From assembly GCF_000423465.1 (NCBI RefSeq), contig NZ_KE384021.1, positions 615,459 to 679,458 of the forward strand: a stretch of 64,000 nucleotides of DNA, read 5' to 3'. The notes below the pieces were generated by a model. It saw nothing but the letters and a program-made list of their open reading frames with translations, was not told where the DNA came from and made no database searches. Both the position numbers and the translations under genes were made by a program. Origin of the DNA: Propionicicella superfundia DSM 22317 (GTDB lineage Bacteria; Actinomycetota; Actinomycetes; Propionibacteriales; Propionibacteriaceae). Numbering within the stretch: the first letter of the stretch is position 1; each line of letters opens with the position of its first letter. This document shows positions 199-10,853 of the stretch, one piece after another.

Positions 199-2001
199 TC
201 AGCTTTCGGTGGCGCTCGGGCTGGGGGGCGTTGTCGTCGGCGGCGTGGTCTGCGGCGTTGTCGTCGGCGGCGTGGTCGGCGTCGTCGGCTCGGGTGGGCG
301 CTTCGCGAGGTACGCCGTGATGATCCTGGTCCGCTCCTCGACCGAACCCGCGTCGGGGATCTGCGAGACGACGGTCCCCTCGGTGGCCGTGGCGTCCTCC
401 TTCGTCTCGAACGTCACGTCGAATCCCGCCTGCTCGGCCATCTCCTTGGCCTTGTCCTGTGTCAGGCCGTACAGGTTCGGGACGGACGACTTCCCTGTCG
501 CGTAGTACACGACGACGGCGGTGTCGGGAGTGACGGTCGCTCCTTCGGCGGGGTTCACGCGCGTCACCTGGTTCGCCTTCGCGCTGACGTCCTCGGACGT
601 GTCCTCCTTCTTGGACACGTCGGTGAAGCCGGCGGTCTTCAACTGCTGCACCACCTCGTCGGCGTCCTTGCCGGCCAGCCCGCTGGGCACCGTGAGCTTG
701 CTCGGGCCGACATTGATCGTGATCGTCACCGTGCTGCCGAGGGTCACCTCGGTGTTCGCTGCCGGGTCCTGCCGTGTGACGGTGTTCACCGAGCTGTCGT
801 CGGGCCCGGCCGTCGTCTCCACCTTCACCTGGAGCTCCGCGTCGGCGATCGCCTTCTCGGCGGCCGCCTGGTTGAAGGTCAGCACCGACGGCACGGCGGT
901 GGTCTTCGGCGCCGTCGGGACGAGGAGGAACACGCCGACGGCGATGAGGGCGACCGCGACGAGCCCGCTGAGCACGAGAAGGGCGACGGTGCTGCCCTTC
1001 ATCTTCTTCTTCTTTCCGTTCTCGGCCTCGTCGACCGCGCGGGCGGGACCGGTGCGGAGCGCGGTCTCGTCGGCGCCGCCCGCGGGCAGCAGGCTCGTCT
1101 CGGCGTAGTCCTCGGGATTCGGCTGGGACGCCACCGCAGGGGCCATCAGCGGCCGGCCGGCGATCGCGGCGGCGATGTCGCCGCGCATCTCGGTCGCGGT
1201 CTGGTACCGGTCGATCGGATCCTTCGCGAGCGCCTTCATCGTGATGGCGTCCATCTCGGGCGTCACCAACGAGTCGAGCTGGCTCGGCGGGACGGGCGTC
1301 TCCCGGACGTGCTGGTAGGCGACCGACACAGGCGAGTCGCCGCTGAACGGCGGGCGCCCCGTGAGCAGTTCGTACAGCAGGCAGCCGGTCGAGTACACGT
1401 CGCTGCGATTGTCGACGATCTCGCCGCGGGCCTGCTCGGGGGACAGGTACTGGGCGGTTCCGATCACGGCCGCGGTCGCCGTCATCGTGGACGACGTGTC
1501 CGACACGGCGCGGGCGATGCCGAAGTCCATCACCTTCACCACGCCCGTGCGGGTGAGCATCACGTTCGCGGGCTTGATGTCGCGGTGGATGATGCCGGAC
1601 TTGTGGGAGTAGGCCAGCGCGTCCAGGACTCCCTGGGTCATCTCCAGAGCCCGCTCGGGGACGATGCGGCGCCCGTCGCGGAGGATGTCGCGCAGGGTGT
1701 GCCCGACCACGAGCTCCATCACGATGTACGGGACCATGACGCCCGTCGCGGGGTCGGCCTCTTCGCCGGTGTCGTACACGGCGACGATGTTGGGATGGTT
1801 CAATCCGGCGGCCGCTTGGGCCTCTTTGCGGAAGCGTGCCTGGAAGGTGGAATCGGTGGCGAGATCGACCCGGAGCAGTTTGACCGCGACATCGCGGCCG
1901 AGGCGGACGTCCCTGGCGCGACGCACCTCGGCCATGCCGCCGCGTCCGAGCAGGTCACCCAGCTCGTAGCGTCCCCCGAGACGTCGAGGCTCATCCGTCA
2001 T
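199..2001 (-). CDS. pknB: Serine/threonine protein kinase with three PASTA domains
   Basis: Membrane Ser/Thr kinase of 600 residues that senses cell-wall material and phosphorylates division and wall-synthesis proteins. Visible: Gly-rich loop (GRGGMAEV, ~19-26), Lys41, catalytic HRD at 139-141, DFG at 159-161, a Thr/Ser-rich activation loop (~169-177), one membrane segment near 337-360, three external PASTA repeats to about residue 570 and a Pro/Thr-rich tail. The ATG at 2001 has an AAAGGA ribosome site. It is the last gene of the fhaA-to-pknB operon; a TAGAGT box (minus strand, about 2050) could be an internal promoter. Family role is established knowledge; the identification is firm. Confidence 0.96.
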   Translation of the reverse strand: MTDEPRRLGGRYELGDLLGRGGMAEVRRARDVRLGRDVAVKLLRVDLATDSTFQARFRKEAQAAAGLNHPNIVAVYDTGEEADPATGVMVPYIVMELVVGHTLRDILRDGRRIVPERALEMTQGVLDALAYSHKSGIIHRDIKPANVMLTRTGVVKVMDFGIARAVSDTSSTMTATAAVIGTAQYLSPEQARGEIVDNRSDVYSTGCLLYELLTGRPPFSGDSPVSVAYQHVRETPVPPSQLDSLVTPEMDAITMKALAKDPIDRYQTATEMRGDIAAAIAGRPLMAPAVASQPNPEDYAETSLLPAGGADETALRTGPARAVDEAENGKKKKMKGSTVALLVLSGLVAVALIAVGVFLLVPTAPKTTAVPSVLTFNQAAAEKAIADAELQVKVETTAGPDDSSVNTVTRQDPAANTEVTLGSTVTITINVGPSKLTVPSGLAGKDADEVVQQLKTAGFTDVSKKEDTSEDVSAKANQVTRVNPAEGATVTPDTAVVVYYATGKSSVPNLYGLTQDKAKEMAEQAGFDVTFETKEDATATEGTVVSQIPDAGSVEERTRIITAYLAKRPPEPTTPTTPPTTTPQTTPPTTTPPSPSATES

Positions 2002-2090: not shown

Positions 2091-3521
2091 TCATGTGAGG
2101 GATTCGATCACCTTGGCCACCATCGGGCCGGCGAGGCGACTGCTGCTGCTCTCGTTCAGCGAGGACGCCCGCGACTCGACGAACGCCGTCACGACGACGT
2201 CGGGGTTCTCGGCAATGCCCACGAACCACGCGTACGGCTTCCGCTGTCCGTCGGACTCGGCCGTGCCGGACTTGCCGCCGACGGTCACTCCGGAGACCTG
2301 GGCGGGGGAGCCGGTGCCGTCCTCCACGACGCTGACCATCCAGCTCTTCAGCAGCTTCGCATTCGCGGAGCTCATGGCCACCGACTGCCGTTCCGGGCTG
2401 TAGGACCGGATGACCTGGAGGTCGGCGGTGCGCACCGACTTCACGATCTGCGGCTTCATGAGCACGCCGTCGTTCGCGATCGCGGCACCCACCATCGCCA
2501 TCTGCAGCGGCGTCGCCGCCACGTCGTACTGCCCGATCGCGCTCATCATGGTCTGCGGCACGTCGGGGTCGGAGGGGAATCGGCTCGCGACGCCGTTGAG
2601 GTCGCTCAACTGGGCACTGTCGAACCCGAACTTCTCGGCCTGTGCCCGGATCTTGTCGTCGCCGAGCGCGCGCCCGAGGTTCGCGAACGCGGTGTTGCAG
2701 GACACGCGGAGCGCTTGGTCGATGGTGATCTTGCTGCCGCCGCAGTCCATCGTGTTGCCGAGGACGGTGTTGGTCGTCGGCAGCGTCAGCTTGTCGGGTG
2801 CGTCCAGCAGGGATTCGGCGGTGTATCCGTTCTCCAGCGCCGCCGCAGCCGTGACGAGCTTGAAGGTCGATCCGGGCGGGTAGACCTCGCGGACGGTCCG
2901 ATTCGCCATGGGCCGCGTCGTGTCGGCGTTGAGGGCCTTCCACGTCGACTCCGACGCCTTCGTGTCGTGCGTCGACAACGTGTTGGGGTCGTAGCTGGGG
3001 CTCGTCACCATCGCGAGGATCTCGCCCGTCTTCCAGTTCATCGCGACGATGGCGCCGGTGTTCGTCCCCAGCGCCTCGGCGGCGGCCTGCTGTGCGGCGG
3101 CGTCGAGGGTGGTCTGGATCGACGCGCCCTCGGACGCCTGGCCGGTCGCCAGGCCGAGCAGCTTCTGCAGGAACAAGGAGTCGTCGGAGCCCGACAGCAC
3201 GGAGTTGTAGCTCTGCTCCAGCCCGCTGCGGCCGTAGAGGTAGGAGTAGAACCCGGTGACGGGGGCGTAGAGGTCGCCGTCGGAGTAGGTCCGCAGGTAC
3301 TTGAAGGAGCTCTGGTCCGCCGGCTCGCTGGCGGCGATCGCCGTGTTGCCGACGAGGATCGCGCCGCGATTCTGCCCGAACTCCGCGACGCGCACACGTC
3401 TGTTGTCGGGGTTGTTGTACAGCCCGGCCTGGCGGAACAGCACCGAGTAGGTGGCGTTGCCCAGCAGGAGCGCCATCATCAGCAGCGAGATGATCGCGGT
3501 GCGGCGGATCGGGTTGTTCAC
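2091..3521 (-). CDS. pbpA: Penicillin-binding protein, transpeptidase (PbpA)
   Basis: Class B penicillin-binding protein of 476 residues that cross-links peptidoglycan and partners the SEDS polymerase encoded just upstream. An N-terminal membrane anchor spans about residues 8-28. Active-site motifs are complete: STFK at 218-221, SCN at 274-276 and KSGT at 417-420. The GTG start (3521-3519) overlaps the rodA stop in a GTGA quadruplet, which suggests translational coupling. Length and gene order match actinobacterial PbpA. Confidence 0.95.
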   Translation of the reverse strand: MNNPIRRTAIISLLMMALLLGNATYSVLFRQAGLYNNPDNRRVRVAEFGQNRGAILVGNTAIAASEPADQSSFKYLRTYSDGDLYAPVTGFYSYLYGRSGLEQSYNSVLSGSDDSLFLQKLLGLATGQASEGASIQTTLDAAAQQAAAEALGTNTGAIVAMNWKTGEILAMVTSPSYDPNTLSTHDTKASESTWKALNADTTRPMANRTVREVYPPGSTFKLVTAAAALENGYTAESLLDAPDKLTLPTTNTVLGNTMDCGGSKITIDQALRVSCNTAFANLGRALGDDKIRAQAEKFGFDSAQLSDLNGVASRFPSDPDVPQTMMSAIGQYDVAATPLQMAMVGAAIANDGVLMKPQIVKSVRTADLQVIRSYSPERQSVAMSSANAKLLKSWMVSVVEDGTGSPAQVSGVTVGGKSGTAESDGQRKPYAWFVGIAENPDVVVTAFVESRASSLNESSSSRLAGPMVAKVIESLT

Positions 3522-5278
3522 TGGTCACCTCCGATGCGCGGCACCTGGCGTGTCGCGTCGGGATCGGGGAGCGGGGACGGCGGGGCGTCCTGGCCGGGTT
3601 CGGGCGCGCTCTCGGGCGTGGCTGCGGTGTGCGGGCGCTGCGTGTCGGGGATGCCGGTGGCGGACACGTCGGGACCGGGGGCGCCGATGCCGGGGATGTA
3701 CGTCGTCGGGGCGTCCGGGCTCACGATCTGGGACGTGGGGGCGTCCGGGACCGCTATGTAGGAGGTCGGGGCGTCGGGGTCGACGGCGTCCGAGGATCGC
3801 CCCGACCCGGCGACGATCTCGGTCTTGGCGCCTGCGCCGAGCGGGACCGTCGGAGCGGCGGCCGCGGGATCGTCGGGCGTGATCGGGCTGCGGGGGAGGC
3901 GCTGGACGGGGATCGCCTGCGTCGCGTCGGCCGCGAGGGAGACCTCCACCGGCCCCGCGACCGGCTCGGGGCGGGGCTTGCGGGCGATGTGGCTGACCAT
4001 GAGCATCAGCGCGAGCACCACCCAGTTGGCCAACAGCGAGGATCCGCCCTGAGACATGAACGGCGTCGTCAGGCCGGTCAGCGGGAGCAGCCGCGTCACG
4101 CCGCCGATGATGGCGAACACCTGGAGCGCGACGACGAAGGCCAGCCCCGCCGAGAGGAGCTTGAGGAACGGCTCGGTCACGGTGAGAGCGGTGCGCAGAC
4201 CGCGGGTCACCAGCAGTGCGTACAGGACGATGACCGCCATCAGCCCGACGGTGCCGAGCTCCTCGCCGATGGCGGTGGCGATGAAGTCGGACTTCGCCAG
4301 CGGTGTCAGGCTGGGGCTCCCGAGCCCCCAGCCGCGGCCGAACAGACCTCCCCAGGCCATTCCGAACTGCCCTTGGATGATCTGGTAGTTCTGCTGGAAG
4401 TCGGAGAACGGGTCGAGCCAGCTCGACACTCGCACCCGGACGTGACCGAACAACTGATAGGCCAGCAACGCGCCGCCGACGAACAGCAGGCCGCCGAGGA
4501 TCGGCCACGCGATCTTCTCGGTAGCGACGTACAGCATCATCACGAACAGGCCGAAGAACAGCAGCGACGTGCCGAGGTCGCTCTCGGCGACGAGGACGAT
4601 GAGACTGGCCCCCCACATCAGCAGGACCGGCCCCAGATCGCGGGCGCGGGGGAGTTCGACGCCGAGGAACCGGTGGCCGGCCTGCGCCAGGACGGTGCGC
4701 CGGTCGGCGAGGTAGGACGCGAACGCGATGGCGAGGACGATCTTGGCGATCTCGGCCGGCTGGAAGCTGTACCCGGCGATGCTGATCCAGATCGTCGCGC
4801 CGTAGTTCGTCCGCCCCAGCCCCGGCACCAGCGGCAGCAGGAGGAGCACGACGCCGACGAGGAACAGGATGTAGGGGAACCGGTGCAGCCGCTCGGGGTC
4901 GCGGATCGCGAGGATCGTCGCCGCGAACCCGACGACGGCCACGCAGGTCCAGACGAACTGCGTGACGGCGTCCGATCCGGGCGGGACGGTCGCCAGGTCG
5001 AGCCGGTGGATCATCGCCAGCCCGAGGCCGTTGAGGAGCAGCACGATCGGCAGCATCACCGGGTCGGCGTACGGCATCGTGAAGCGCACGACGAGGTGCG
5101 CGACGAGCCCGATCAGCACCCACGCGCCGACGACGTACGGCCATTCGCCGGGCAGCCGGGCGTCCCGGAACAGGTGGGTCAGGACGTACCCGCCCGCGCC
5201 GAGAATCTGGGCGAGCAGCACCATCGCCAGTTCGACGTTGCGCCGCTTCCGATAGGTCACCGTGACTTCGGCCGCCAT
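3518..5278 (-). CDS. rodA: SEDS peptidoglycan glycosyltransferase RodA/FtsW family
   Basis: Polytopic membrane polymerase that extends glycan strands; works with PbpA. From the ATG at 5278 it is 586 residues. About ten to twelve membrane segments fill residues ~20-440, with the conserved ESDLGTSLLF region inside. I chose this ATG because longer in-frame starts lie inside pstP and would add an implausible Arg/Pro-rich stretch. The cytoplasmic tail (~450-586) is unusual: it carries three 10-residue repeats of type PDAPTxxI with Thr505, Thr515 and Thr525, plus TQAI earlier. Threonine followed three residues later by Ile is the FHA-domain ligand pattern, and two FHA proteins are encoded in this operon. 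The start is one base after the pstP stop. Confidence 0.94.
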   Translation of the reverse strand: MAAEVTVTYRKRRNVELAMVLLAQILGAGGYVLTHLFRDARLPGEWPYVVGAWVLIGLVAHLVVRFTMPYADPVMLPIVLLLNGLGLAMIHRLDLATVPPGSDAVTQFVWTCVAVVGFAATILAIRDPERLHRFPYILFLVGVVLLLLPLVPGLGRTNYGATIWISIAGYSFQPAEIAKIVLAIAFASYLADRRTVLAQAGHRFLGVELPRARDLGPVLLMWGASLIVLVAESDLGTSLLFFGLFVMMLYVATEKIAWPILGGLLFVGGALLAYQLFGHVRVRVSSWLDPFSDFQQNYQIIQGQFGMAWGGLFGRGWGLGSPSLTPLAKSDFIATAIGEELGTVGLMAVIVLYALLVTRGLRTALTVTEPFLKLLSAGLAFVVALQVFAIIGGVTRLLPLTGLTTPFMSQGGSSLLANWVVLALMLMVSHIARKPRPEPVAGPVEVSLAADATQAIPVQRLPRSPITPDDPAAAAPTVPLGAGAKTEIVAGSGRSSDAVDPDAPTSYIAVPDAPTSQIVSPDAPTTYIPGIGAPGPDVSATGIPDTQRPHTAATPESAPEPGQDAPPSPLPDPDATRQVPRIGGDQ

Positions 5279-5279
5279 G

Positions 5280-6734
5280 TCAGCAGCCTTCGGTCGCGCC
5301 CGAGGGTGTCGCGTCGGTCGTGGGGTCGGACGCCGATCCGGTCGGGGCGGCCGAGATCGTGCCGGCGGTGGCCGGGCGCGTGCCGAGGGACGGCGCGGCC
5401 GACACGCTCGACGCCGACGGCGAGGTGGCGACGGGGGTGGGGGAGGGCGTCTGCGTCGCCTTGGCCCGCTCCTCGCGGGTCTTGACGCATTCCGCGGCAA
5501 ACTGCTCGAGCTCGCCCACGGTGGTTCGGGCGTTCTCGAGGTTGCCCGTGGGGAATTGCCGCCCGCGGACCTTCTCGGCCCACATGGGTGGCAGGTCGGC
5601 GACTCGGGTCTCCTGTTTCTCGTACACCTCGTACAACCGCACGTCGCCCACCTGGTCGGGAACGCCGCGGAAGATCGTCACCACGTCGTCGGAGGCACCG
5701 ACGAAGTACAGGTTGCGGGTGTATCCGTACCACACCGACAGGCCGGCGACGATGGCGACGACGGGGACGAGGACCGCCAGTGCGAAGCGGAACCAGCGTC
5801 CCTTGCGCTTGGCGATGGTGGGCTTGTACCGGGCACGCTCGCCGGCGTCGGGATCGAGCGGCATGGGTGTGCGGGAGAGCCGGCTGTCGGAACGGTCGAT
5901 GCGGAGGGTGTCCTCGGTCTCCTCGTCGGCTTCGAGGCTGGTGGTCGGACGCGTGGTGGCCGGGATCTCGCGTGTCACCGCTGCGCCGAGCAGGACGGGC
6001 TCCTGCGGGGTGACGGACTCGGCGAGGAGATCGGCGAGGATGATCGTGATGTTGTCGACGCCGCCGCCGGTGTGGGCCGCGTCGATGAGGATCTCCATGA
6101 CGTTGTCGAGGTCGGGGTTCTGCAGGGCGACGCCGATCTGTTCGTCGTCGACGAGACCGCACAGGCCGTCGGAGCAGAACAGCAGCCGGTCACCGTCCTG
6201 GAGGTCGATGAGATCGAACTCGGGCTCGATGACCGGCTGACCGTTGAGCACCCGGAGGATGAGGGAGCGGTGCGGATGAGTGAGGGCCTCATCCTCGGTG
6301 ATGCGGCCCTCGTCGATGAGTTGCTGCACCCACGAGTGATCGCGGGTGAGCCGCATCAGATGTCCGTCGCGGACGATGTACCCGCGGGAGTCTCCGATAT
6401 GCGCGATGCCCAGGCTCTTGCCGTCGAACATGCCGCCGCACACGGTCGTCCCCATGCCTTCCAGCGACTGGTCGGCGACGACGAGGTCGGCGATCGTGTC
6501 GTTGGCGCGGGCCAGGGTCTCGACGAGGACGTCCAGCATCTGCTCGCCCTCGAAATGCCCGTCGGCGTCCTGGAGCGCCCGGGCGGCCACGGTGGACGCG
6601 AGGTCGCCGGCCGCAGCGCCCCCCATGCCGTCGGCGACGAACAGCATGGTCGGAGAGGCGTACCCGGAGTCCTGGTTGTTCTTGCGGACGAGCCCGATCT
6701 CGGAGTGGCAGACGTAACGCAGGGACAGGGGCAT
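5280..6734 (-). CDS. pstP: PP2C-family Ser/Thr phosphatase
   Basis: Metal-dependent protein phosphatase of 484 residues that reverses PknB phosphorylation. Metal-binding motifs are present: RKNNQDSG (Asp22), ADGMGG (Asp35), GDSRGY and, near residue 225, DNITI. One membrane segment lies near 311-335, followed by an extracellular domain and a Thr/Ser/Pro-rich end. The linker before the membrane segment contains TLRI, another possible FHA ligand. It starts seven bases after the fhaB stop and ends one base before rodA. Identification is firm. Confidence 0.95.
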   Translation of the reverse strand: MPLSLRYVCHSEIGLVRKNNQDSGYASPTMLFVADGMGGAAAGDLASTVAARALQDADGHFEGEQMLDVLVETLARANDTIADLVVADQSLEGMGTTVCGGMFDGKSLGIAHIGDSRGYIVRDGHLMRLTRDHSWVQQLIDEGRITEDEALTHPHRSLILRVLNGQPVIEPEFDLIDLQDGDRLLFCSDGLCGLVDDEQIGVALQNPDLDNVMEILIDAAHTGGGVDNITIILADLLAESVTPQEPVLLGAAVTREIPATTRPTTSLEADEETEDTLRIDRSDSRLSRTPMPLDPDAGERARYKPTIAKRKGRWFRFALAVLVPVVAIVAGLSVWYGYTRNLYFVGASDDVVTIFRGVPDQVGDVRLYEVYEKQETRVADLPPMWAEKVRGRQFPTGNLENARTTVGELEQFAAECVKTREERAKATQTPSPTPVATSPSASSVSAAPSLGTRPATAGTISAAPTGSASDPTTDATPSGATEGC

Positions 6735-6740
6735 GTCGAC

Positions 6741-7250
6741 TTACCGCCCCAGGGTCATGGTCGTTCGCCCGATCCGCAGCCGGTCGCCGGGGCGGAGCGT
6801 CCGGGGCTCTGCGACGCGTTCGTCGTTGAGAAACGTCCCGTTGGTGGATCCCAGGTCGGTGAGCACGACCCCGGCCGACTGCGGCTCGATCCGGGCGTGA
6901 TGGCCGGAGGCGAAGTCATCGGTCAGGATGATGTCGTTCTCGACGCTGCGGCCGAGTGTGAGCGTCGTTGTCAGCGTGAACGTCCGGCTTGCCAGCGGGC
7001 CGTTGTCCATCGTCAGGTAGCGGGGACGCTTCCGCCCGCCGGCGCGTCCGGCCGCGGGGGCCGGCGTCGCAGCACCGGCGGGGGCGTCGGGAGGCGGGAA
7101 GGACCTCCGTTCGGCGGCGTCGCCCGTGTCGACGGGGACCGCCTTGCCCCACATGTCCGTCCGGATGATGTTGGCGACGAACAGGATGAACAGCCACAGC
7201 AGCACCAAGAACGCGATGCGAAGCGCGAAGACGACAAGTTCGGACATCAC
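6741..7250 (-). CDS. fhaB: FHA-domain membrane protein FhaB (FipA)
   Basis: Small phosphothreonine-binding protein, 169 residues. A single hydrophobic segment (about residues 8-27) anchors it, then a Pro/Ala linker, then a C-terminal FHA domain (~95-165) with the typical GRS..N.I and H..I....GV.L.D..STNGT pattern. The GTG at 7250 gives a GTGA overlap with the fhaA stop; the ATG directly after it (7247) is an equally possible start. Probably links phosphorylated partners of PknB to division or wall synthesis (family knowledge). Confidence 0.93.
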   Translation of the reverse strand: MMSELVVFALRIAFLVLLWLFILFVANIIRTDMWGKAVPVDTGDAAERRSFPPPDAPAGAATPAPAAGRAGGRKRPRYLTMDNGPLASRTFTLTTTLTLGRSVENDIILTDDFASGHHARIEPQSAGVVLTDLGSTNGTFLNDERVAEPRTLRPGDRLRIGRTTMTLGR

Positions 7251-7957
7251 TCACCCGCGTCTTGGACGACCAGTCGCGTGCTTCCGATCTCGATGCGGGT
7301 GCCTTTCGTCAGGGTGGCCCTGGCGACCTTCTGGCCGTTCACGATGATGCCGTTGGTCGATCCGAGGTCTTCGATGAGCACGGAGGTGTCCTCGCCGCGG
7401 CCGGTCACAGTGATCTGAGCGTGGCGACGGGAGATGCCGGGGTCGTTGATGCGGAGGTCGGACTCGGTGCCGCGTCCGATCGTCAGGCCCGGGGGGAGCA
7501 GCGGGTGGCGGACGCCGTTCACCTCGATGACCAGGTGCGCTGTGCGGAGCTGGCTCACAGACTCGGGCGCCGCGTCGGTCTCGACCCCGGCGACGGCGCG
7601 GGAGGCGACGGTGAACTTGCCGGTGGGGAGGGACCCGTCGAGTTCGTAGAGAACGCCGATCGGTCCGTTGAAGATGTACCCCTTGGCCGTCGCATGCTCG
7701 CGCAGGGCGGGGATGATCTCGGAATTGAGGGTCTTGGAGTACGGCGTGAGCCGGTCGTAGTCGTGGGAGGACAAGCCGATGACGAACTCGTTGGGGACGA
7801 GCCGCCGGTCCATCGACAGCAGCTTGGCCTCGGAGTCCAGTTCGCGCTGCAGTCGTGCCGCGATCTCGACGGGCTGGACATCGCCCTTGAAGGCTCGTGC
7901 GAAGACGCCGCTGACCGCCCCTTCGATGCTCTTCTCGATCTTGTCGAAGACTCCCAT
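7247..7957 (-). CDS. fhaA: FHA-domain protein FhaA with DUF3662 N-terminus
   Basis: Cytoplasmic phosphothreonine-binding adaptor of 236 residues. The N-terminal ~125 residues match the DUF3662 type (starts MGVFDKIEKSIEGAV). The C-terminal FHA domain (~150-230) shows GRG..SDLRI, SRRHA and LGSTNG. The ATG at 7957 follows a strong GAAGGGGG ribosome site; a slightly longer in-frame start lacks such a site. First gene of the operon. A TAGCAT element on the minus strand near 7977-7982 may be its -10 box (inference). Confidence 0.93.
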   Translation of the reverse strand: MGVFDKIEKSIEGAVSGVFARAFKGDVQPVEIAARLQRELDSEAKLLSMDRRLVPNEFVIGLSSHDYDRLTPYSKTLNSEIIPALREHATAKGYIFNGPIGVLYELDGSLPTGKFTVASRAVAGVETDAAPESVSQLRTAHLVIEVNGVRHPLLPPGLTIGRGTESDLRINDPGISRRHAQITVTGRGEDTSVLIEDLGSTNGIIVNGQKVARATLTKGTRIEIGSTRLVVQDAGE

Positions 7958-8383: not shown

Positions 8384-9595
8384 TTGCTTCCATTCGTTGC
8401 GTTCCCCGCGCTCGGCCACGCCGAGCACTTCTGGCATGCCCACGACGCGTACGCCTCCAGAGCAGCGATCGCAGCCGCCAACGGCCCGTACCAGTCGACG
8501 ATCACGCCACCCATCGTCGATTACGTCCCACAGCTTCCCTCCGGCTTGGCCGCCGACGTTGCCGAGGCCGAGGCTGCGCTGGTGCAGTTCGATCAGTATG
8601 CGCGTCTGGTCCTGGGTGCGGGCAATCCTGGTCTCGGACCGATGAGCAGCATTCTGCTTCGGACCGAGTCTGCCTCGAGTTCTCAGATCGAGAACCTCAC
8701 AGTTGGCGCCACGCAGCTTGCTCTGGCTGAACTCGACCAAGCCAAGTCCGACAACGCCCGCGTTGTGACTGCCAACGTGCGGACGATGGAGGCGGCGTTG
8801 GCGCTGTCCGGCCGGCTCGATGAGAACTCGATCCTGGCGATGCACAGGGAGTTGCTGTCCGGCCAATCCGGGTGGGAGGAGCATGCCGGAAGGTATCGCA
8901 ATCAGCTCGTGTGGGTGGGATCGTCGCCAATCACACCGCGCGGGGCTGCCCACGTTGCTCCACAGTCAGAGCTGGTGCCGGCAGCAATGGCAGATCTGGT
9001 CAGCTTCCTGCGACGCCGGGACATCCCTGTCGTCGCCCATGTGGCGATCGCCCACGCACAGTTCGAGACGATCCACCCCTTCGTGGATGGCAACGGCAGG
9101 ACGGGGCGAGCTCTCGTCCATGCCATGCTCGCTGCGGCTGGGGTGCTCAGGTCCACGACTGCACCGATCTCGGCCGGCCTGCTGCGCGACGTTGAGCCCT
9201 ACTTCGCCGCTCTGGGTGACTTCCGGTCAGGCGATGCGGGGCCGATCATCGCGGCGTTCGCCGACGCGTCGCTATTCGCGGCCAGGTCAGGGGCGCAGCT
9301 GGTCGACGATCTGGCTGCTCAGGCTGACCAGGCGCGACAGCAGCTTGCCGGGCTGCGGAAGGACGCCGCCGGTTGGACCGTGCTTCCTCACCTTGTCGCC
9401 CATCCGGTGATCAACGCACGGTTCTTGACGAGCCAGTTGGGAATGAGTGACGTGGCCGCACAGCGTGCGCTCGATCAGCTCACGCGAGCGGGCGTGCTCG
9501 TCGAGCGAACCGGTCTGAAGCGCAACCGGGTCTACCAGCACGACGGGATTCTTCAGGTTCTGGATGCCTATGCTCAACAACTGCGTCGCCGGTAA
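8384..9595 (+). CDS. Fic-family AMPylase, class II (self-inhibited), with C-terminal winged helix
   Basis: Fic proteins transfer a nucleotide group, usually AMP, to target proteins. This 403-residue protein carries the complete active-site motif HPFVDGNGRTGR at 231-242. Upstream, residues 99-104 (SSQIEN) fit the inhibitory motif [S/T]xxxE[G/N]; its position before the Fic core places the protein in class II. The last ~80 residues look like a winged helix-turn-helix. The TTG start at 8384 is chosen because AAGGAGG lies six bases before it. Target unknown. It sits in an island with transposase sequences and repeats, so acquisition by transfer is plausible. Confidence 0.85.
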   Translation: MLPFVAFPALGHAEHFWHAHDAYASRAAIAAANGPYQSTITPPIVDYVPQLPSGLAADVAEAEAALVQFDQYARLVLGAGNPGLGPMSSILLRTESASSSQIENLTVGATQLALAELDQAKSDNARVVTANVRTMEAALALSGRLDENSILAMHRELLSGQSGWEEHAGRYRNQLVWVGSSPITPRGAAHVAPQSELVPAAMADLVSFLRRRDIPVVAHVAIAHAQFETIHPFVDGNGRTGRALVHAMLAAAGVLRSTTAPISAGLLRDVEPYFAALGDFRSGDAGPIIAAFADASLFAARSGAQLVDDLAAQADQARQQLAGLRKDAAGWTVLPHLVAHPVINARFLTSQLGMSDVAAQRALDQLTRAGVLVERTGLKRNRVYQHDGILQVLDAYAQQLRRR

Positions 9596-9742: not shown

Positions 9743-10852
9743 TAGTATCGCGCGTCATTAGTTCGTTGACATTGTGGGGTGATGGGTCATGTCATCATCA
9801 GTTGTGGAGCTCAGCGAGCCGGATCGGGTGATTCTGGAGTCGTGGGCGCGGTCGAGCACGGTGTCGGCGGGTCGTGTGGAGCGGGCGCGGATCGTGCTCG
9901 CGGTTGCGGACGGCGCTGGGACGACGCAGGTCGCGGCACGGTTGGGGATCTCGCGTCCGACGGTGATCAAGTGGCGGGACCGGTTCGCCGCCCAGGGGAT
10001 CGACGGGTTGGATGATGAGCCCCGCTCGGGGCGGCCGAAGACGATCGATGATGGGGGGATCCTGGCCGCCACCCTGGAGCCGCCGCCGGAGCGTCTGGCG
10101 GTGACGCACTGGTCGACCCGGCTGCTTGGCGCCCAGTTGGGGGTCGGGGATGCCACGGTGGCGAGGGCGTGGCGGAAGTACGGGATCAAGCCGTGGCGCA
10201 GGGAGACGTTCAAGTTCTCCACCGATCCCGAGCTGGAGGCGAAGGTCCGTGACGTGGTCGGGCTGTATCTGGACCCGCCGGCCAAGGCGATCGTGTTGTG
10301 TGTGGACGAGAAGTCCCAGATCCAGGCGCTGAACCGGACCGCCCCGATCCTGCCGGTTCGTCCCGGGCTGCCGGAGAAGGCCACCCACGACTACAAACGC
10401 AACGGCACCACCACGCTGTTCGCCGCCCTCGGGATCGCCACCGGGCGCGTGACCGATGCCTGCTACGACCGGCACGGCAAGGCCGAGTTCGGCGACTTTC
10501 TCAAGAAGGTCGCCCACGCCTACCCCCGCCGACAGTTGCATGTGGTGGTCGACAACTACCACACCCACAAACACCCCGAGATCCAGGCCTGGCTCGCCAA
10601 GAACCCGCGCATCACACTGCACTTCACACCCACGTCTGGTTCCTGGCTGAACCTGGTCGAGGTGTTCTTCGGGATCATCACCCGCCAGGCCATCCGGCGC
10701 GGCAGCTTCGACAGCGTCCCCCAACTGGTGACCGCGATCCGGAAGTTCATCGCCGGCTGGAACGACCGCTGCCACCCCTTCACCTGGACCAAGACCGCCG
10801 ACGAGATCCTGCCCCACGCCAGCCGTAAACGAGATTCAGACGCAGGAGACTA
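9743..10852 (+). mobile_element. IS630-type insertion sequence
   Basis: The element is about 1.1 kb. CTAG occurs at 9742-9745 and 10850-10853, giving a TA dinucleotide at each end as expected for IS630 insertion. The ends are imperfect inverted repeats: reading inward they begin GTATCGCGCGTC on the left and GTCTCCTGCGTC on the right, and 19 of 28 positions match when the CTA is included. One transposase gene fills it. Boundaries are inferred from these features. Confidence 0.75.
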
Positions 10853-10853
10853 G
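9789..10853 (+). CDS. IS630-family transposase
   Basis: DDE-type transposase, 354 residues. An N-terminal helix-turn-helix (~40-65, ...ARLGISRPTVIKWRDRF) precedes the RNase H-like core. The catalytic triad is visible: Asp173 in VDEKSQ, Asp255 in VVDNYHTHK and Glu291 in LVEVFFG, with 35 residues between the last two. The frame is intact, so the element may be active. Its TAG stop (10851-10853) consists of the duplicated TA of the target plus the first flanking base, so the element carries no stop of its own in this frame before its right end. Confidence 0.92.
   Translation: MSSSVVELSEPDRVILESWARSSTVSAGRVERARIVLAVADGAGTTQVAARLGISRPTVIKWRDRFAAQGIDGLDDEPRSGRPKTIDDGGILAATLEPPPERLAVTHWSTRLLGAQLGVGDATVARAWRKYGIKPWRRETFKFSTDPELEAKVRDVVGLYLDPPAKAIVLCVDEKSQIQALNRTAPILPVRPGLPEKATHDYKRNGTTTLFAALGIATGRVTDACYDRHGKAEFGDFLKKVAHAYPRRQLHVVVDNYHTHKHPEIQAWLAKNPRITLHFTPTSGSWLNLVEVFFGIITRQAIRRGSFDSVPQLVTAIRKFIAGWNDRCHPFTWTKTADEILPHASRKRDSDAGD

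Follow-up and report, generated by a model that had tools for sequence, protein, structure and literature searches.

We found that the tail of RodA, the SEDS glycan polymerase encoded in the pknB–fhaA operon of Propionicicella superfundia DSM 22317, carries a threonine motif (T-x-x-aliphatic with an acidic residue shortly upstream) that recurs class-wide near the end of RodA tails and in the juxtamembrane linker of the kinase PknB. The operon lies in a window of 64,000 nucleotides (contig C2:615459-679458 of a 3.6-Mb genome, 98% complete). An earlier note on this DNA had taken a tandem array of such motifs in the tail as the core feature. The array is real, and its three PDAPTxxI repeats with a 10-residue period were recovered by translation, motif mapping, and Tandem Repeats Finder; however, the core should be recast, as tail comparisons point to one class-wide motif close to where the tail ends; the PknB linker shares it, and the array would be its lineage-specific multiplication. 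We consider a kinase-controlled phosphosite in the RodA tail well supported, because the threonine motif is class-wide, serine is unused, the PknB linker bears the same signature, and the mycobacterial tail carries phosphate in vivo, to a greater extent when PknB is present.

The window RodA belongs to the actinobacterial SEDS polymerases encoded in pknB operons, as indicated by its Pfam match (PF01098, E 4e-68), the synteny pknB-pbpA-rodA-pstP-fhaB-fhaA, and its match to solved RodA/FtsW structures. Its last 150 residues, which we take to be cytoplasmic from the topology of the family, form one tail with seven Txx[IVLM] sites that is predicted to be disordered: in an AlphaFold2 model from 36 sequences, the predicted local distance difference test (pLDDT) averaged 35 to 48 in 10-residue blocks from residue 451 on, with no secondary structure, and was below 50 in 128 of the 134 residues from 453 to 586, most of the membrane part being confident. 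PDAP directly precedes each TxxI of the array, and the spacing is exactly 10 residues. The tail has four TxxI motifs (shuffle mean 0.76, p 0.0035) and seven Txx[IVLM] (p 0.0011 against shuffles), but the array copies are not independent, so that the comparative test outweighs these single-tail values. Genome-wide, a DNA pattern for acidic-x-Pro-Thr-x-x-Ile occurred 44 times versus 9 for the reversed pattern, and the RodA tail was the only location with listed sites less than 100 bp apart. The best conserved threonine of the tail is T453, in the TQAI that had also been pointed out earlier and that lies outside the interval delimited then; it is the only invariant tail column when the window RodA is aligned with 35 of 55 relatives. 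From this alignment, also used for AlphaFold2, most members of the clade with the longest tails (L029, L035, L047, L049, L053, L054, L057) were omitted.

For the comparison, tails were taken as the residues past the last membrane helix, and each tail was shuffled to obtain the expectation. The relatives comprised 57 loci (L003 to L059), mostly from Propionibacteriaceae, including Micropruina, Propionicimonas, Enemella, Tessaracoccus, Microlunatus, Propionibacterium, and others. The loss of TxxI for which their tails were checked was not what we found: Txx[IVLM] is present in 57/57 (shuffle mean 32.3, maximum 42). Aliphatic residues followed threonine at +3 in 158/369 cases, at +2 in 110/369, at +1 in 30/375, and at +4 in 59/368, against a background of 0.16, and followed serine at +3 in 22/259 (adjacent TT pairs such as ETTQVI are scored twice in all offset counts). 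Among the threonines with an aliphatic +3, 62% had an acidic residue at -2 and 45% at -3 (background, 15%). Sxx[IVLM] totals were below the shuffle mean both here (22 versus 39.9) and in the class set described below (12 versus 18.5). The tail of L003 (Micropruina sp. SSC1) was trimmed to 70 residues because its rodA frame, Arg/Pro-rich past the first sites, continues into pbpA without a stop, perhaps because of a fusion, or because the repeat region holds a frameshift or was misassembled.

The class set was drawn from 98 genomes, 11 of which gave only FtsW-grade matches and no RodA tail; it held 89 matches in 85 genomes, or 84 unique tails, and three weaker or partial matches (G090:C57, G007:C42, G039:C3) were left out. 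Txx[IVLM] was present in 69 of the 84 unique tails (shuffle mean 26.6, maximum 38), in 62 of them with an acidic residue at most 4 residues upstream. By family (33 with tails), every sampled tail had the motif in 25, some had it in 5, and none in 3. All four sampled tails of family f26 (L081, L092, L103, L104) are without the motif; they measure 8 to 9 residues, RRE standing close to their ends, and FhaA is present there. Aliphatic residues stood at T+3 in 86/164 cases, at T+2 in 76/164, and at S+3 in 12/101, the +2 and +3 offsets being poorly separated in short tails because the common short form is T-Q-V-V. When Phe was also allowed at +3, 76 of 89 class rows carried the motif, and 63 of the 76 had their last motif threonine at the 6th or 7th position counted from the C-terminus. 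A threonine with an aliphatic +3 and an upstream acidic residue is found in RodA tails class-wide, as expected of a site orthologous to Thr463 of mycobacterial RodA, and a single site near the end, represented by T453 in the window RodA and by T463 in mycobacteria, is the usual state and probably the ancestral one. Thr463 is presumably the threonine of TEVI, from a protein length of 469, and a 2018 study of RodA and PbpA in the Journal of Biological Chemistry reportedly concerns it.

FtsW tails, used as a control (20 places hand-picked among the matches listed, giving 18 non-empty unique tails), showed no motif excess (3/18, shuffle mean 3.2). In other classes of the phylum (25 genomes with loci out of 55; 22 tails after setting aside 3 empty ones), 6/22 tails had the motif, which is not significant overall (shuffle mean 2.9, maximum 7). 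Loci L174 to L177 were removed from this set as repeats of class rows, and no tails were taken from L060 (no C-terminus), from L061 and L062 (other phyla), or from L001, L002, and L064. Five of the six other-class positives belong to family f39 (L181, L184, L185, L187, L188), and all five sampled RodAs of this family terminate in T-x-E-I-L-I-G-G-R or near it; this T-x-E-I ending is possibly a deeper form of the class motif.

In a RodA tree of 70 rows, 17 had at least three acidic-preceded sites: the window, five rows of Micropruina, Nigerium with a sister row, L037 and L019, four rows of the clade holding Propionicimonas (L004, L006, L007, L010), two of another long-tailed clade (L035, L054), and L134 (genome G022), placed among rows of other families. 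Several lineages of the family thus have arrays, as does one row outside the family, and the fewest array/single state changes on the tree number 10, which is not a count of gains. The tree, made by a quick method with Shimodaira-Hasegawa-like approximate likelihood-ratio (SH-aLRT) support only, includes from the class 12 full-length loci and L134; L058 was too short and was left out, and the placement of the window RodA is not firm. The units differ by lineage (DAPTSYIAVP, DEPTAAIPTPSG, DEPTQAVPVPGS, DAPTGPIPAVSP, EAPTEVVG, QPTEAVRL), and this pattern suggests that one older site was multiplied repeatedly, although an older array could also have been lost several times. In 11 array tails, 53 positions were anchored on [DEN]xP alone; threonine came next in 32, each time with I, V, or L at +3, and serine in 0.

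Within single arrays (45 unit pairs), the +1 residue differs in 21 pairs and the +2 residue in 12, and the threonine codons differ synonymously in 23, threonine itself being a condition of the comparison, so that its constancy is no evidence. These differences bear on the idea that a Pro/Thr/Ala/Asp-rich tail merely slipped into functionless short repeats. The predicted disorder would suit such low-complexity drift, as would the repeat itself, a decayed 30-nt tandem duplication; however, motif frequencies far above shuffles in the relatives and the class, the invariance of T453, and the codon and +1 changes between units make drift very improbable. A PDZ-type C-terminal ligand was also considered and dropped, as the array sites are internal.

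The same signature was found in the PknB linker between the kinase domain and the membrane helix. Among 43 of 55 kinase open reading frames (ORFs; 11 without the end motif and one without a recognized membrane segment were dropped), Txx[IVLM] occurred in 43/43 linkers (shuffle mean 27.6, maximum 36), and 32/43 had an acidic residue just upstream of it (shuffle maximum 21); aliphatic residues stood at T+3 in 93/248 cases versus 9/100 at S+3. The window PknB has AETSLLP in this linker. Among the ratios in Table 1 of a study of Mycobacterium tuberculosis, that of a PknB peptide starting with TSLL was the highest, at 33.5, but it says little about the site because PknB itself was depleted (PMC6180346). 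The signal in PstP linkers was weak: Txx[IVLM] was found in 31/38 (shuffle mean 23; 38 of 54 linkers, the 16 without the linker anchor being dropped), with aliphatic residues at +3 in 61/215, at +1 in 46/216, and at +2 in 46/215 cases. The TLRI to which the earlier note drew attention does exist in the window PstP, but we make no claim for it as part of the RodA-tail system.

The published data that follow come from the accessible passages of the papers cited. An M. tuberculosis RodA phosphopeptide, SPITAAGTEVIERV, was 3.03-fold higher with PknB, its modified residue being unmarked (PMC6180346), and RodA Thr463 is phosphorylated in BCG (PMC4389566). RodA was undetected altogether in a Mycobacterium smegmatis proteome (PMC6554272). 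As for readers, the FHA domain of FhaA binds CwlM phosphopeptides (PMC6180346), binding of Rv0020c (FhaA) to MupDivIVA depends on phosphothreonine (pThr) and not on phosphoserine (PMC4238996), and pTXXI is bound by the FHA1 domain of Rad53 (PMC4037201). The use of threonine and not serine in the RodA tails, with 0 serines at the 53 anchored positions and Sxx[IVLM] below shuffle, is what a pTxxI-class FHA ligand would show.

Considering the tail comparisons together with these data, phosphorylation of the RodA tail sites seems very probable, and we lean slightly toward a docking tail that would be phosphorylated by PknB, reset by PstP, and read by an FHA domain. The tail would act as a flexible cytoplasmic docking peptide, in which PknB or a sister kinase would phosphorylate the threonine of [DE]-[DE]-x-T-x-x-[I/V/L] and from which PstP would take the phosphate off. 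An FHA domain encoded in the operon, most likely that of FhaA, would read the pThr and so tie the glycan polymerase to the kinase state and the elongation machinery, and the multiplication of the site into an array in this organism and some relatives may raise valency or dwell time. We infer in this way phosphorylation in this organism, FHA binding, and an effect of copy number. FhaA is a better candidate reader than FhaB, because the FhaA of the window keeps the usual GR, SRRH, and STNG residues, while its FhaB has S-G-H-H where 37 of 53 best matches in relatives have S-T-R-H or S-S-R-H. The genome gave seven FHA matches and seven over-threshold kinases, so that writing and reading need not fall to the proteins of the operon. 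One further candidate reader, which we take to be perhaps GarA/OdhI-like, is the protein of a 166-aa frame at G000:C1:512907-513101 that holds the genome's strongest FHA match.

Several observations weigh against an FHA-read tail, beginning with the altered residues of FhaB. FhaA was looked for in 40 chosen genomes, and FhaA_N was found in 39 of them, with or without the motif, so that its presence does not discriminate; in G022, the sole miss, about 0.6 kb separate rodA from the end of a contig. Twelve of the class genomes had been hand-picked as motif-poor, and two of these (G006, G047) carry Txx[IVLM] by pattern and were not counted as motif-less. FhaA is retained in 10/10 sampled class genomes without Txx[IVLM], though it has other partners, and is present in 9/9 sampled genomes of other classes without the motif. 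The +3 residue varies among I, V, and L in 14/45 unit pairs, at least as often as +2. The five M. smegmatis phosphosites listed for the operon in the available part of one paper include none in RodA (PMC4389566), nor is RodA among the four proteins whose phosphorylation changes in Streptomyces albus without PknB, according to the passages at hand (PMC13432765). It is also absent from Table 1 of an FhaA interactome (25 proteins, FhaA included; a separate Table S2 has 31) (PMC11898655). The proposal made earlier, that PknB phosphorylates the tail to recruit FhaA or FhaB, therefore stands in part: the disorder, the conservation of threonine and its +3 residue, the acidic residues at -2 and -3, and the mycobacterial phosphorylation speak for it, whereas the retention of FhaA in motif-less genomes and the content of the interactome table speak against the recruitment.

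Kinase specificity could by itself produce the signature seen in the tails. The tail would then be a kinase substrate without an FHA reader, in which the added charge alters RodA activity, its pairing with PbpA, or a phosphate-sensitive contact, and in which the +3 and acidic positions serve kinase recognition. An aliphatic residue at +3 is also liked by the PknA and PknB kinases. The motifs Glu-X-X-pThr and pThr-X-Pro are associated with sensitivity to PknA/PknB inhibitors in M. tuberculosis, the first of them agreeing with the acidic -3, and 88% of the sensitive phosphopeptides carry pThr, so that the threonine bias cannot separate the two readings (PMC5845002, accessible part). The signature also stands in the linker of PknB itself, where autophosphorylation would be expected, and the increase of RodA phosphorylation with PknB fits equally (PMC6180346). 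However, kinase recognition itself does not explain the recurrent arrays, and pThr-X-Pro, the other reported motif, differs from that of RodA; we regard a substrate tail without a reader as rather unlikely.

The tail could also dock, unphosphorylated, onto another elongation factor (DivIVA/Wag31, for example) and so bring RodA to the growth zone, with phosphorylation, if any, as a switch on that contact. In Corynebacterium glutamicum, the last 10 residues of RodA bind DivIVA in an Escherichia coli assay, most of the colocalization being lost without them, and K434, Q435, and S433/S437 matter (PMC4285798, passages available). This finding, too, counts against an FHA-read tail. However, the mapped residues are K, Q, and S and not threonine (the comparison was made without the C. 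glutamicum tail sequence), while the class pattern fixes threonine, avoids serine, has upstream acidic residues, and shares its signature with PknB. Such docking seems improbable to us as the role of the class motif.

For the route by which the signal of the PASTA kinase reaches the actinobacterial elongation polymerase, a class-wide threonine motif near the RodA end, similar in logic to sites of the kinase and multiplied in some lineages, would offer a concrete and cheaply testable link from the kinase through FHA adaptors to glycan synthesis, and the arrays supply natural variants differing in valency. More tentatively, RodA and PknB may share a pThr code read by FhaA or FhaB, such that kinase, adaptor, and polymerase would form a kinase-gated cluster whose size is tuned by array expansion; we consider this extension doubtful, but, if true, the shared code would amount to a multivalent phospho-tail on a SEDS enzyme. 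From mycobacteria, the single site was already known; the literature searched showed neither the class-wide terminal motif nor the arrays nor the signature shared with PknB. In the titles and beginnings of abstracts that were listed, most subscription papers being out of reach, there was no RodA-tail repeat array and no FHA binding to RodA.

The source organism of the window is a member or neighbor of Propionibacteriaceae, and a genus-level genome search returned this genome only. The operon is transcribed from the minus strand in the order fhaA, fhaB, pstP, rodA, pbpA, pknB (Table 1). Its products are a PASTA kinase, a transpeptidase, a SEDS protein, a PP2C phosphatase, and two FHA proteins, all six confirmed by Pfam, in agreement with the kinase, phosphatase, and pair of FHA proteins recognized earlier from the sequence. 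Two ORFs at about 8384-9595 (+) and 9789-10853 (+) adjoin the operon, and from their translations we take them to be Fic-domain-like and an IS630-like transposase, respectively.

Table 1. Operon genes and RodA tail features, in positions of the window
Feature	Position	Strand	Basis
pknB, PASTA Ser/Thr kinase; AETSLLP (TxxL) in juxtamembrane linker	199..2001	-	Pfam; linker comparison
pbpA, class B penicillin-binding protein, presumed RodA partner	2091..3521	-	Pfam
rodA, SEDS glycan polymerase, 586 aa; adjoins pstP stop, own stop overlaps pbpA start region	3518..5278	-	Translation; Pfam PF01098 E 4e-68
SEDS (FTSW_RODA_SPOVE) domain, residues 75-432	3983..5056	-	Pfam; match to solved RodA/FtsW relatives ends at residue 429-431
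Predicted disordered tail, residues 437-586	3521..3970	-	AlphaFold2
T453-Q-A-I, conserved TxxI site, probably ancestral	3911..3922	-	Motif mapping; alignment with relatives
T477-V-P-L, weaker TxxL without nearby upstream acidic residue	3839..3850	-	Motif mapping
T486-E-I-V, weaker TxxV without nearby upstream acidic residue	3812..3823	-	Motif mapping
30-nt tandem repeat coding for the array, 2.5 copies, 78% matches	3704..3779	-	Tandem Repeats Finder
Array unit 1, T505-S-Y-I (PDAPTSYI)	3755..3766	-	Translation, motif mapping
Array unit 2, T515-S-Q-I (PDAPTSQI)	3725..3736	-	Translation, motif mapping
Array unit 3, T525-T-Y-I (PDAPTTYI)	3695..3706	-	Translation, motif mapping
T576-R-Q-V (DPDATRQV), terminal TxxV	3542..3553	-	Motif mapping
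pstP, PP2C phosphatase; TLRI in linker at 5898-5909	5280..6734	-	Pfam; sequence; linker comparison weak
fhaB, N-terminal hydrophobic segment and FHA domain	6741..7250	-	Pfam; FHA motif survey
fhaA, FhaA_N and FHA domain with GR, SRRH, STNG	7247..7957	-	Pfam; FHA motif survey

The closest known system, as far as the accessible passages describe these cases, is Thr463 of mycobacterial RodA (Rv0017c), in the tail of the orthologous polymerase of the same operon, in a TxxI context (GTEVIERV) and more phosphorylated with PknB; however, that tail peptide has a lone Txx[IVL] site, close to its end, while the window RodA has seven in a 150-residue tail, three of them in tandem array. CwlM (C-terminal pT382/pT386) and MurJ (MviN; pThr) are likewise cell wall substrates of PknB that are bound by the FHA domain of FhaA when phosphorylated, but they are not polymerases, no repeat array was seen in the passages on them, and FHA binding was measured for them and is proposed for RodA. 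The C-terminus of C. glutamicum RodA resembles our case as a docking site at the end of the RodA tail and differs in its mapped residues (K, Q, S), the passages at hand containing no phosphorylation test. The ABC transporter Rv1747, with two FHA domains, is also an envelope membrane protein, whose FHA module condenses more upon kinase action, with reversal by PstP; FHA domains and phosphosites are there in one protein, while for RodA the reader would be a separate one. Seven sites within one segment predicted to be disordered are what a multivalent FHA/pThr cluster of the Rv1747 or Rad53 kind would show. Rad53 and Dun1 form a eukaryotic checkpoint kinase system, in which a peptide of the Rad53 SQ/TQ cluster with two pThr is read in trans by the FHA domain of Dun1, as would be the RodA tail, although through TQ sites instead of acidic-x-T-x-x-I.

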